DNA from: an uncultured Pelagibacteraceae bacterium
Lineage (GTDB): Bacteria; Pseudomonadota; Alphaproteobacteria; Pelagibacterales; Pelagibacteraceae
NCBI GenBank assembly: GCA_902619675.1
Contig: CACNFA010000006.1
Coordinates: 1 to 57,051 of the forward strand
Direction of reading: 5' to 3'
Length of the DNA: 57,051 bases
Shown here: positions 18,947-23,222 of the stretch, piece after piece
Layout of the letters: every line of letters begins with the position of its first letter
Numbering within the stretch: the stretch's first letter is position 1
Notes under the pieces: generated by a model
What the model was told of the DNA's origin: nothing
The model's input: the letters and a program-made list of their open reading frames with translations, nothing else
Database searches by the model: none
Program-made: the position numbers and the translations under genes

Positions 18947-19615
18947 ATGAGAAATATTAAAAAAAAAAATGAAAATTCATTGATTAATCATTTCATTGAA
19001 ATCTTTAAAAGAGAAATAGAAAAAAAAAATAGGAATAAAAAAAGATTAAGTTTTGTTTTAACAGGGGGTTCAAGTCCGGTAAACTTATATAAAAAACTAG
19101 CTAAATCACAGATAGATTGGTCTAATGTTGACTTATTCTGGGGTGATGAAAGATTTGTCTCAAAAGACTCCAAATACTCAAACTACAAGCTTGCTTATGA
19201 TTTGTTGATTAAAAAAATAAAGATCAACGATTTAAATTTATTTCCATACCAAACTAATAATATTGAAATAAGAAAAAGCTCCTTAAAATATCGAGACGAA
19301 ATTAAAAAATATTTTAAAAAAAAAAAAATTAGGTTTAATATATTTTTACTTGGGATGGGAGATGATGGGCATGTAGCATCTATTTTCCCAAATTCAAAAG
19401 AGTTAACGCAAAAATTTATCATAAAGCCAATTTTTAGAAAAGATTTTAAAAGGCTAACTTTCAGTCTAAATGTAATTAATGACTCAGATAAGATTTTTTT
19501 ATGGCTTAATACTAAAAAAAAAACATCTATTTATAATAAATTAAAAATAAAAGGAAAAAAAATCACTGTAAATAATTTGAATAAGAAAAAATTATTTTGT
19601 TTTTCTATTAATTAA
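18947..19615 (+). CDS. pgl: 6-phosphogluconolactonase
   Basis: The 222-residue product resembles the SugB/GlmB-like 6-phosphogluconolactonase family, which hydrolyses 6-phosphogluconolactone in the oxidative pentose phosphate or Entner-Doudoroff route. VLTGGSSPVNLYKKL near residues 37-51, DLFWGDERFV near 62-71 and LGMGDDGHVASIFP near 135-148 are the three family blocks. It is very lysine-rich, with poly-A tracts in the DNA. No zwf or edd gene is in the window. Its 3' end overlaps the convergent carbonic-anhydrase-like gene by 8 bp. Confidence 0.88.
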   Translation: MRNIKKKNENSLINHFIEIFKREIEKKNRNKKRLSFVLTGGSSPVNLYKKLAKSQIDWSNVDLFWGDERFVSKDSKYSNYKLAYDLLIKKIKINDLNLFPYQTNNIEIRKSSLKYRDEIKKYFKKKKIRFNIFLLGMGDDGHVASIFPNSKELTQKFIIKPIFRKDFKRLTFSLNVINDSDKIFLWLNTKKKTSIYNKLKIKGKKITVNNLNKKKLFCFSIN

Positions 19616-20033
19616 ATATTTCAATTTTTTTATTTAAAGAAATTAAAATTAATTCAATTTGAAGATTGGGATATTTTTTTTTTAAAGTTTTTTTTAATTC
19701 TTGGAAAGATTTTTGATGAATTTTCGTTTCATTATCAAAATTAAAATTTTTTTTTCCACTTATAATTTTAGCTACACCACAATCACGATGATTTATAACA
19801 ATTAATTTTTTAATTTTATGAAGTTTAACGGATATATGAATATTATCCCAGAAAGTTTTATGCCATTTTTTAAATTTTTTTTCTGTAATTCCAATTGCAG
19901 ATCCTGCTATTGTAAAAGAACTATATTTCCCCCTCAATTTTCTTTTATTTAAATAGTTAAAAACAATCGGTTGAAACCTTGGGTCTATACAAGATAAAAC
20001 CATTGCTTCATATTTAAAAGACATTTTACTCAA
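19608..20033 (-). CDS. Small beta-carbonic-anhydrase-like protein
   Basis: The 141-residue protein carries the complete beta-CA metal site: CIDPR (Cys15, Asp17, Arg19) and HRDC (His82, Cys85). It is much shorter than typical beta-CAs (about 200-220 residues), lacking the N-terminal arm and part of the C-terminal sheet. It could hydrate CO2, or be a divergent zinc protein. It follows glmS with an 8-bp overlap on the same strand. The assignment to the fold is good; activity is uncertain. Confidence 0.7.
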   Translation of the reverse strand: MSKMSFKYEAMVLSCIDPRFQPIVFNYLNKRKLRGKYSSFTIAGSAIGITEKKFKKWHKTFWDNIHISVKLHKIKKLIVINHRDCGVAKIISGKKNFNFDNETKIHQKSFQELKKTLKKKYPNLQIELILISLNKKIEIFN

Positions 20034-21843
20034 CTGTAACAGATTTAGCTAAGTTTCTAGGCTTATCAATATCACAGCTTTTTAATAATGCTACATGATA
20101 AGCCAATAATTGCAAAGGTATAGTTAATAAGATTGGAGATAAAAAATTATCTAAGTGTGGCACTCTTAACCTGAGTCTTATATTTGTACTTAAAAGCCTT
20201 TTTTTTATATCAGTGATAAAAAAAATTTTTCCTCCTCTAGCTATAACTTCCTGTGTATTTGAGAGTGTTTTTTCAAAATATTTATCTTTAGGAGCTATAA
20301 CTATTACAGGTAAACCTTCTTCTATAAGAGCTAACGGGCCGTGCTTCATTTCACCTGCTGGATAACCTTCAGCATGAAGATACGAAAGCTCTTTTAATTT
20401 CAAAGCTCCTTCTAGTGCAATTGGAAAAGAGCTTCCTCTACCTAAAAACATAGATCCTCTAGCCTTTAAAAATTCTTGCGCCATTATTTGTATATCACCT
20501 TCTGATTTTAGAGTTTTAGCTATAGCGTCAGGAAGTTTTTTTAAATTCTCAATATTAATATTATAACTTTTTTTATCTATATCGTTTCGTACAGAGGAGA
20601 GTTTTAAACATAAAATATATAAAACTATTAATTGTCCTAAAAATGCCTTTGTAGATGCAACACCTATCTCGGGGCCTGCGTGAATAGGTAAAACCCAATC
20701 AGAGTTCCTTGCTATTGTGCTTTCTACGACATTAACAACTGAACAAGTTTTAACTTTATTCTTTTTGCAAATCTCCAATGCCGCTGCTGTGTCAGCTGTC
20801 TCACCAGATTGAGATACAAAAATATATAAATTTTTTGTACTAAATTTTAAATTTCTATACCTAAATTCTGAAGCAATATCTATCTCAACTTCAATACTAG
20901 TTAGTTCCTCGAACCAGTATTTTGCTACTAAGCATGAATGATAAGCTGTACCACATCCAATCAAAATAATTTTTTCAATTTCGCCCGGAGTTATTGGAAA
21001 ATTATAAATATTTATATCCTTTTTGAGACTATCAATGTACTCACTGACACATTTTTTTGCAGTGTTTGGTTGTTCAAAGATTTCTTTGGACATAAAATTT
21101 TTATAATCTCCTTTATCAGCAGTATTTTCATCGTCAGATACAATATGTATCTTTTTATTGATTTTGTTTTGATTGGCATCGAAAAAAGAAATTTCACTTT
21201 TGGATAAAACACAAATTTCACCGTCATCTAAATAGGAAATCTTATTTGTCATTGATTTTAGAGCATAAGAGTCTGAACCAAGATAGTTTTCCTCTTTAGA
21301 ATAACCTACTGCAAGTGGGCTTCCTCTTCTTGCGCCAATAATAATATCAGTATGGTTTTTAAAAATAATACCTAAAGCAAAACTTCCTTTTAGTTTTTTA
21401 AGTGTTTTAAATACTGACTCTAGAGGATCTGATTTTTTTAACGACTCTGTAACTAACAATGTTATAACCTCAGTATCAGTTTCTGATTTAAACTTAAAAC
21501 CTTTTTCTTCTAGAGTTTTTTTTAATTCATCTGAATTTTCAATAATCCCATTATGTACAACGGAAACCTTCTCTGATGAATGTGGGTGAGCATTTAAAGT
21601 ATTAGGTATTCCATGTGTTGCCCATCGTACATGTCCTATGCCAACGTTACCTTCTGAAGGGTTTTTGAATAAAATTTTTTCAAGCTCCTCTACTCTCCCG
21701 GAACATTTTTTTTCATTTATTGTGTTATTGGTAAGAGTGGCTATTCCGGCTGAGTCATACCCCCTATACTCCAATTTCTTTAATGAATTAATGATATTCA
21801 TAGAAACTGACTTGTTGCTAGCTATTCCGATTATTCCGCACAT
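20026..21843 (-). CDS. glmS: Glutamine--fructose-6-phosphate aminotransferase
   Basis: The 605-residue enzyme makes glucosamine-6-phosphate, the first committed step to UDP-GlcNAc. After Met removal Cys1 (MCGIIGIAS) is the glutaminase nucleophile. HVRWATHGIPN and GDKxD-type blocks of the amidotransferase domain follow, then two SIS isomerase domains with GCGTAYHSC and VSQSGETADTAA, and the C-terminal KPRNLAKSVTVE that closes the active site. It begins exactly where the GlmU-type gene ends (the ATG and stop share bases), pairing two steps of the same pathway. Confidence 0.96.
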   Translation of the reverse strand: MCGIIGIASNKSVSMNIINSLKKLEYRGYDSAGIATLTNNTINEKKCSGRVEELEKILFKNPSEGNVGIGHVRWATHGIPNTLNAHPHSSEKVSVVHNGIIENSDELKKTLEEKGFKFKSETDTEVITLLVTESLKKSDPLESVFKTLKKLKGSFALGIIFKNHTDIIIGARRGSPLAVGYSKEENYLGSDSYALKSMTNKISYLDDGEICVLSKSEISFFDANQNKINKKIHIVSDDENTADKGDYKNFMSKEIFEQPNTAKKCVSEYIDSLKKDINIYNFPITPGEIEKIILIGCGTAYHSCLVAKYWFEELTSIEVEIDIASEFRYRNLKFSTKNLYIFVSQSGETADTAAALEICKKNKVKTCSVVNVVESTIARNSDWVLPIHAGPEIGVASTKAFLGQLIVLYILCLKLSSVRNDIDKKSYNINIENLKKLPDAIAKTLKSEGDIQIMAQEFLKARGSMFLGRGSSFPIALEGALKLKELSYLHAEGYPAGEMKHGPLALIEEGLPVIVIAPKDKYFEKTLSNTQEVIARGGKIFFITDIKKRLLSTNIRLRLRVPHLDNFLSPILLTIPLQLLAYHVALLKSCDIDKPRNLAKSVTVE

Positions 21844-22490
21844 TATTTTCGTTTTTTTCTTTTATAATTTTTAATTTTAATCTGAGAAGATCTTGTAAGT
21901 GCTAAGGATTTTTTTTCTACATTTTTTGTAATTACAGATCCAGCTCCTATAATACTACCTTCACCTAATTTAACTGGTGCTACTAAAGATGAGTTTGAAC
22001 CTACAAATACATTGTTGGAAATTTTTGTTTTTGATTTTTTTAAACCATCATAGTTACAAGTAATTGTTCCAGCTCCTATATTAGAATTTTTTCCAATTGA
22101 AGTGTCACCAATGTAAGATAAATGGTTTACTTTTGAATTTTTATTTATACTAGATTTTTTAGTTTCTACAAAATTTCCAATTTTAGTATTTTCTTTTAAA
22201 ACAGTTCCTTCTCTCAATCTTGCATATGGACCTATGACAACATTTTTTTCAATTTTAGTTCCGTGTAAATGACTAAAAGATTTAATGTATGAATTATCAC
22301 CTATCTTAACTTTTGGCCCAAAAACAACATAAGGCTCAACAGTTACATTTTTTCCAAATAAAGTATCTTTTGATAAAAAAATGGTCTCTGGAGCAATTAA
22401 ATTCACACCTTTTGTTAAAGCTTTATTTCTTAAGATTTCTTGTGAAAGCCGATAAGCATTAACTTGTTTTAATTTATTATTTCTTTTCAT
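21843..22490 (-). CDS. Stand-alone GlmU-type glucosamine-1-phosphate acetyltransferase domain
   Basis: The 215 residues match only the C-terminal half of bifunctional GlmU: the linker helix region at the start, then a left-handed beta-helix of hexapeptide repeats. [30 protein letters not shown] (with the catalytic His), [11 protein letters not shown] and [11 protein letters not shown] follow the GlmU order. The N-terminal uridylyltransferase half (about 230 residues, LAAGxGTRM loop) is absent, and the 69 bp upstream leave no room for it. It should acetylate glucosamine-1-phosphate; the uridylyl transfer must be encoded elsewhere. It is coupled to glmS downstream. Confidence 0.85.
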
Positions 22491-22559
22491 TTAAAATTTC
22501 TTTACATTAATAATGATACTGAAATAAGTCACAAAATATTTCTTTTTAATACTTTTAAA

Positions 22560-23222
22560 ATGACTCAAATTTATACAATTCTTTTCGATTTAGATGGGAC
22601 CATTGTCAATACGGCTCCTGATTTAATGGCAGCTCATAATCATGTTATGAAGAAATTTGGTCATGCTGAAAAAAAATTAGAAGATATTAAATCTTTAGCA
22701 GGCAAAGGTGCCTGGGTTATGATGCAAAGATCTTTTAAAGAAGAAATAAAAGATGAAAAATTAAAAAAAGAAATGACTAAAGAATTTATAGATTATTACT
22801 CGAAAAATATTGACCAACATAGTCGACCGTTAAAAGGATCAATTGAATTTTTCAATTGGGCAAAAAAAAAGAATATTTCAATGGGAGTGTGTACCAATAA
22901 ACAAGAAAAGTTGGCGATAGATCTTTTAAAGAAATTAGATATGTATAAATATTTTGAATATATTGCCGGAAGTGACACCTTCACGTTTAATAAACCTGAT
23001 CCTCGACACTTGACAAATGTAGTTGAAATAATTGGTGGAAATTTAAAAAAAACAATTATGATTGGCGATAGTGAGGTCGATGCCAATTCAGCTCTTAATG
23101 CCAATTTGCCATTTGTATTAGTAAAAGATGGATACACTGAAAAATCTGAAAATGAAATTAAACATGATGAATTAATTAGTGACTTCATAGGTTTTGAAAA
23201 AATAATAGAAAAATATTTATGA
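22560..23222 (+). CDS. gph: HAD-family phosphatase, phosphoglycolate phosphatase-like
   Basis: The 220-residue protein is a HAD subfamily IA hydrolase with nucleophile motif ILFDLDGTIVNT (Asp10, Asp12), motif II VCTNK, the Lys of NKPDPRH and motif IV MIGDSEVDANSA. The cap inserted after motif I is helical, as in phosphoglycolate phosphatase Gph. Specificity is not fixed by sequence alone. The stop overlaps the LysE-type gene start (ATGA). Confidence 0.8.
   Translation: MTQIYTILFDLDGTIVNTAPDLMAAHNHVMKKFGHAEKKLEDIKSLAGKGAWVMMQRSFKEEIKDEKLKKEMTKEFIDYYSKNIDQHSRPLKGSIEFFNWAKKKNISMGVCTNKQEKLAIDLLKKLDMYKYFEYIAGSDTFTFNKPDPRHLTNVVEIIGGNLKKTIMIGDSEVDANSALNANLPFVLVKDGYTEKSENEIKHDELISDFIGFEKIIEKYL

Follow-up and report, generated by a model that had tools for sequence, protein, structure and literature searches.

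An acetyltransferase-only GlmU in SAR11 bacteria and the candidate enzymes for its missing uridylyltransferase step

In the textbook pathway, bacterial synthesis of UDP-GlcNAc ends with the bifunctional GlmU, which is also a drug target. The enzymes of peptidoglycan and lipid A synthesis (MurA, MurG, LpxA) need UDP-GlcNAc. In SAR11, which is among the most abundant groups of ocean bacteria, we came upon a glmU gene that is too short for both of its activities. The gene lies in the window, that is, in the whole 57,051-nucleotide stretch that was analysed from an uncultured Pelagibacteraceae bacterium (contig CACNFA010000006.1). Which enzyme, then, uridylylates GlcNAc-1-P in this bacterium and its relatives? 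The locus has the following features.

21843–22490, reverse strand: acetyltransferase half of glmU (GlmU-C), 215 aa, a predicted monofunctional glucosamine-1-phosphate N-acetyltransferase.
20026–21843, reverse strand: glmS, glutamine-fructose-6-phosphate transaminase, 605 aa (TIGR01135, 754 bits, above cut-off).
22491–22559: gap of 69 bp between glmU-C and the upstream divergent gene; no in-frame remnant of the N-domain was seen in it.
22560–23222, forward strand: HAD phosphatase, the divergent neighbour of glmU; its best models are phosphoglycolate phosphatases, below cut-off.

The glmU-C reading frame starts with an ATG, and a TAA stands in frame immediately 5' of it. The 215-aa protein covers positions 224–452 of the 452 in the glmU model TIGR01173 (250 bits, E 4.3e-74); it begins at the linker helix between the two GlmU domains, where the original prediction had placed the start of the gene. 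The curated cut-off of 366.85 is not reached, and therefore the model does not count the protein as a full GlmU. PRK14353 matches it over positions 230–436 of 453 (E 2.9e-93), and the C-domains of solved GlmU structures match it with a best E of 9.4e-48. Retention of the catalytic block, which had also been proposed, was borne out by the alignment with E. coli GlmU: all 13 C-domain residues checked are identical. The compared positions are R333, E349, K351, H363, Y366, N377, A380, N386, Y387, K392, S405, A423 and R440. The N-terminal pyrophosphorylase domain is absent from the gene and from the gap in front of it, and the 69 bp before the HAD gene leave no room for it, as had been expected. 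The proposed coupling to glmS is seen in the 1-bp overlap, since base 21843 is the end of glmU-C and also belongs to glmS. By sequence, the product is the acetyltransferase half of GlmU. The conserved residues and the GlmS and GlmM context predict that it acetylates GlcN-1-P using acetyl-CoA.

The surroundings of glmS were also read. Just 3' of it lies a 141-aa ORF of PF20393, a putative carbonic anhydrase (19608–20033, reverse strand). On the opposite strand to this ORF, a 6-phosphogluconolactonase gene precedes a class II DAHP synthase gene in the window, and at several other loci an apparent DAHP synthase gene directly follows glmS. In genus g5, an 821-aa open frame that could be taken for a fusion of glmU-C with glmS (genome G005, L213 2221–4662) turned out to be a read-through; there are two ORFs with a TAG stop between them.

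The assembly to which the window belongs has 958,907 bases in 36 contigs and is 80.69% complete. Its glmU-C is the only strong match to TIGR01173, and the seven others are all weaker than E 3.5e-15. A scan for relatives, which favours near copies of the short form, gave 139 stretches encoding close relatives, and the best 80 of the 139 are all Pelagibacteraceae (SAR11) records. A C-half ORF of 182–241 aa, in some cases truncated where the contig stops, is present in all of these 80 loci. In the DNA around the C-half, none of the 80 has an N-domain match at E≤1e-5; for at least two of them, L063 and L103, this DNA is shortened by the end of a contig, which in L103 falls upstream. Searching 118 Pelagibacteraceae genomes with TIGR01173, we found a full-length glmU in 12, six of genus g9 and six of genus g12. 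The C-half alone gave a strong match in 89, and 17 have no strong match, as tallied from the listed matches. Among the 45 genomes with completeness of at least 90% and contamination of at most 5% (good genomes below, tallied from rounded values), seven have the full gene, one of them (G040) in two pieces, 37 have the short one, and G015 has no strong match. Only the short form occurs in 11 of the 14 genera; the single genome of genus g8 gave no strong match to GlmU, and genus g9 includes one short-form genome, G054. Eight short-form genomes, given as 99–100% complete, are single contigs (G003, G005, G017, G026, G035, G043, G063, G078). The G040 genome (genus g12) is also a single contig. Its full-length glmU is broken in two frames (L018, G040:C1 1127763–1129063), which is possibly a sequencing error or a fresh lesion of the N-domain.

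The gene order indicates how the short form may have arisen. In genera g9 and g12 the order is gph, full glmU, glmS, with an N-domain of about 225 aa between gph and the C-half. The short-form loci that were read have the order gph, glmU-C, glmS, as far as their contigs extend. No remnant of the N-domain was found upstream in the ten short-form loci read, except for possibly three residues in G054. In genus g7, in G019 and in G054, the short gene starts at the Met of the motif M-Q-x-[KR]-L-R, which lies within the longer g9 gene. No orthologue of the N-domain was found in the short-form genomes searched, as described below; on these sequences, therefore, glmU was not split into two genes, and its N-half was dropped in place. 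Thus, of the earlier idea of a split at the domain boundary, the cut at the linker stands, and the division of the gene into two does not.

We also asked how many times the domain was lost. In the GlmU-C+GlmS tree, the full/short label takes four changes, three of them forced by well-supported branches; without E. coli it takes three, two of them forced. The short-form G054 is nested in the full-length genus g9 with support of 100/100. Genus g7 adjoins g9 in the tree of a MurU-like protein (98/93) and in the GalU tree (92/84), and in the latter g7 and g9 group with g12 (98/96). On the GlmU-C+GlmS data alone, g9 and g12 as a single clade are not rejected (AU p 0.22). For this reason, the count of losses rests on the MurU-like and GalU trees. 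These suggest that, if regain never occurs, the N-domain was lost at least three times, in G054, in g7 and in the main short-form clade with or without g5. One main loss plus that of G054 fits the GlmU-C+GlmS data and is disfavoured by the two other trees, which place g7 with g9. It is possible that the full gene was regained or transferred instead of the N-domain being lost repeatedly. The frame-broken glmU of G040 was excluded from the N-domain profile and from the trees, the genes of G048 and G066 were excluded from the trees, and E. coli was excluded from the second tree. Genus g4, with g14, groups with g9, g12 and g7 in the GlmU-C+GlmS tree and with g1–g3 in the MurU-like and GalU trees. 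This conflict (loci L263–L269 and L278) may stem from a tree artefact, or the glmU-glmS locus may have been exchanged.

GlmM is present in all 45 good genomes and in the assembly of the window, so GlcNAc-1-P can be formed. For the step that follows, the original prediction had expected a separate GlmU N-terminal-like gene elsewhere in the genome. We built an N-domain profile from the family. In genomes with the full gene it scores 410 and 384 bits in two, and 265 plus 98 bits for the two pieces in G040. In 16 short-form genomes the best score is 40.7 bits and no GlmU N-domain orthologue was found, so the expected gene did not turn up there. The weak matches that were inspected are other nucleotidyltransferases (IspDF, KdsB, RmlA, RfbF-like, ManC-like and CBS-domain types); they are a part of all weak matches, and a 253-aa protein in L191, for example, is outside this part. 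The names were given by length, start and context; model scores were obtained for the GalU, MurU-like and AmgK-like proteins only. In the assembly of the window, the nucleotidyltransferases (ManC-like, RfbF-like, KdsB, IspDF) were considered as candidates, and by sequence and context none resembles the missing enzyme. The UAP1-type family PF01704 is above cut-off in none of the 118 family genomes and weak in one (E 7.5e-4); none of the 14 controls was positive either, which makes this a weak test. Two nucleotidyltransferases, the MurU-like protein and GalU, each occur in all 45 good genomes, also where GlmU is full-length. This universality was counted for these two; ManC, RmlA and MobA-like proteins were left out of the count, and IspDF and KdsB were met repeatedly. 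Neither the MurU-like protein nor GalU was found in the window's own assembly, which is 80.69% complete. Most likely, the missing step falls to an older paralogue.

We propose the following route. GlmS would form GlcN-6-P, GlmM would convert it to GlcN-1-P, and GlmU-C, judging by its family and conserved residues, would convert this to GlcNAc-1-P. GlcNAc-1-P would then leave GlmU-C, and an older nucleotidyltransferase, one that every good genome has, would uridylylate it in trans. In the main short-form clade, which includes the genus of the window, this enzyme is most likely GalU with altered uridine and sugar motifs, a function read from its substitutions. We put the probability that GlmU-C makes GlcNAc-1-P and GalU uridylylates it in the main clade at about 0.5. 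Loss of the N-domain would have been possible because the second activity was already in the ancestor, and an ancestral second activity would therefore also account for the apparent repeated losses. Only as a tentative extension do we suggest that the main-clade GalU is a dual UDP-glucose/UDP-GlcNAc pyrophosphorylase and that such a backup is the reason why the N-domain was lost at least three times in the family.

We compared 17 GalUs of the main clade (genera g1, g2, g3, g4, g6, g13 and g14) with 19 other GalUs of the family. It turned out that K21S, G31N, L109T, Y168W and Q227H (numbering of the G027 protein) are present in 17/17 of the main-clade sequences, at columns that are invariant in the 19 others. 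At these columns the E. coli enzyme carries K, V, L, Y and Q and so agrees with the other family GalUs at four of them; thus, four of the five changes leave a residue common to both. The motifs GLGxA, xYG and E[IL]Q[IL]TD are altered in all 17. The G027 protein scores 246 bits with TIGR01099, below the cut-off of 326.8, yet this is by far its best model. In B. subtilis YngB, Gly110 binds uridine and Gly172 binds glucose (PMC7961091). Matched by residue spacing only, Gly108 of GalU, which precedes L109T, corresponds to Gly110 of YngB, and Gly169, which follows Y168W, corresponds to Gly172. In a profile alignment, the new Thr of L109T is aligned with that of the GlmU motif GTGHAV, recreating Gly-Thr-Gly. 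Thr89 is one of the pocket residues that PMC9105790 discusses for M. tuberculosis GlmU; judged by how the residues given there (Gln83, Gly88, Thr89) are spaced, it should be the Thr of Gly-Thr-Gly. In addition, E. coli GalU converts GlcNAc-1-P with UTP in vitro, within a range of 39–48% for three sugar phosphates in 120 min (PMC4340641).

Changes fixed in the clade are more frequent in GalU (5 of 76 columns) than in the MurU-like protein (1/48), AmgK (0/28), GlmS (0/210) and GlmU-C (0/69). The excess is significant against these four proteins pooled (Fisher p 0.0008) and not against the MurU-like protein alone (p 0.40); the zeros of GlmS and GlmU-C are partly expected, because their tree does not hold the main clade together. 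The GalU branch below the main clade is long (0.47), so several of its changes may be unrelated. Against GalU, the position of G31N varies (E. coli has V there), and Y168W does not bring the protein closer to GlmU. PMC3888555 describes the pockets of UDP-glucose pyrophosphorylases, that of H. pylori GalU (3JUK) among them, as lacking room for the N-acetyl group. The remaining short-form lineages, g5, g7 and G054, do not have these GalU changes. Thus, the altered GalU cannot be the general answer, and the step may be solved differently in these three. We also considered divergence rates as a means to discriminate between GalU and the MurU-like protein. By the within-genus median ratio of GalU to AmgK divergence, GalU is slow in g4 (0.39, 15 pairs) compared with the full-length genera g9 (0.63) and g12 (0.87). 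However, the ratio is 0.6 in g1 (3 pairs), no slower than in g9, and 2.54 in g5 (one pair), in the opposite direction. With these exceptions the GalU/AmgK rates only hint, and the test was set aside as suggestive.

The second candidate is the MurU-like enzyme of the cluster ahcY-tsaE-amgK-murU-gpmA, which would serve both MurNAc recycling and the de novo synthesis of UDP-GlcNAc by uridylylating GlcNAc-1-P. We regard this as rather unlikely, although several facts speak for it. The protein is present in 45/45 good genomes, each with E 7.6e-74 or better among the matches listed, and it is also present in g5 and g7, where GalU is unchanged. The known substrate of MurU is likewise an N-acetylated sugar 1-phosphate, used with UTP (PMC5371407). 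S109P, beside the presumed metal-binding Asp, is fixed in 28/28 of the main-clade sequences. The cluster region of a same-genus genome, from ahcY to gpmA, was used as the query for the assembly of the window, with 40 of 292 candidate stretches scored. The one match was to its far end, at bases 4–707 of contig C3 (L260). Since only this end matches, and at the start of the contig, a gap in the assembly probably accounts for the missing cluster.

The retention of the MurU-like protein, on the other hand, is accounted for by the recycling set. AnmK is present in all 45 good genomes, which contradicts the idea that AmgK and MurU had lost their recycling role; an AmgK-like gene is adjacent, and the neighbour of glmU is MupP-like. 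In Caulobacter, CCNA_02390, which adjoins the GlmU gene CCNA_02389, is tabulated as a MupP homologue (PMC13046382). As the MurU-like protein keeps its recycling partners, its retention needs no second job, though one is possible. It is not slowed relative to AmgK in the short-form lineages, where the median ratio is 1.08 (62 pairs), as against 0.87 (30 pairs) in the full-length ones. For these rates, an AmgK ORF was missing, under the rule used, from 5 of the 47 MurU loci. In the alignment of the MurU-like proteins, g12_G023 was entered without 30 residues upstream. The best models of the protein are MurU and those of the adjacent gene are AmgK, in both cases below cut-off; with the two NCBIfam MurU models, the MurU-like protein scores 127.5 bits against a cut-off of 250 and 133 bits against one of 370, far too low in each case. 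In the literature searched, as far as its text was available, we found no report of a MurU assayed on GlcNAc-1-P.

The step could also be performed by a dedicated uridylyltransferase that is lineage-specific, unrecognised or outside the families searched. G054 may serve as an illustration; like g5 and g7, it is short-form and lacks the GalU changes. Its contig C6 encodes a 238-aa protein (L261 2943–3659, reverse strand) that matches TIGR01173 over positions 3–228, along the GlmU N-domain, and among solved structures those of GlmU are closest to it (E 6.9e-6, residues 9–232). The gene adjoins a glycosyltransferase-like gene in an apparent surface-glycan cluster. The protein may be that genome's own replacement, or it may be a surface-glycan enzyme. 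However, G054 is just 76% complete and stands outside the 16 short-form genomes searched with the N-domain profile, where nothing comparable was seen at up to 40.7 bits (not every weak match is named), and the gene for an essential step would be expected to be conserved. We consider a dedicated enzyme improbable. Least of all do we credit a different sugar acetyltransferase, with a full-length GlmU hidden by incomplete assemblies: the window's assembly is incomplete, but no full-length glmU was found in it or in the eight single-contig short-form genomes, which carry the half alone, and the short gene with its 13 conserved residues occupies the place of the full-length glmU of g9 and g12, so that the reading of a distinct acetyltransferase, against which the original prediction had to be weighed, is largely refuted.

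We found no earlier report of the short GlmU of SAR11 in the open-licence literature searched. Compared with the bifunctional GlmU (E. coli glmU b3730, TIGR01173), the SAR11 protein has the same C-terminal hexapeptide acetyltransferase domain, the same checked residues and the adjoining glmS; it differs in lacking the whole N-terminal uridylyltransferase domain and in scoring below the curated cut-off. A one-domain GlmU in a reduced alphaproteobacterium has already been published for Rickettsia (PMC5615194). That case is the mirror image, since the uridylyltransferase was kept and the acetyltransferase domain was lost, and import of host GlcNAc-1-P was proposed. In the eukaryotic route, acetyl and uridylyl transfer are likewise on two proteins, with UAP1 as the pyrophosphorylase, but the sugar is acetylated as the 6-phosphate (PMC3888555), and the 118 family genomes have no PF01704 protein above cut-off. 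The recycling systems of the Pseudomonas type (AmgK/MurU, PMC5371407) and of Caulobacter (MurU shunt, PMC13046382) resemble SAR11 in that it has AnmK, AmgK-like and MurU-like proteins. The known MurU forms UDP-MurNAc. In the literature searched, we met no MurU that takes part in the synthesis of UDP-GlcNAc, so such a role would be new. The single-contig genomes narrow the candidates, and the question can be tested with three purified proteins. GalU, the UDP-glucose pyrophosphorylase (E. coli b1236), shares with its SAR11 counterpart the family and the size, and it is found in all good genomes; the E. coli enzyme accepts GlcNAc-1-P in vitro (PMC4340641). The GalU of the main SAR11 clade differs from it by the five substitutions, four of them at positions where E. 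coli matches the other family GalUs. If GalU of the main clade does have the dual role suggested above, a single enzyme would supply glycans built on glucose as well as the cell-wall polymers of amino sugars, and GlmU would act as an acetyltransferase only.
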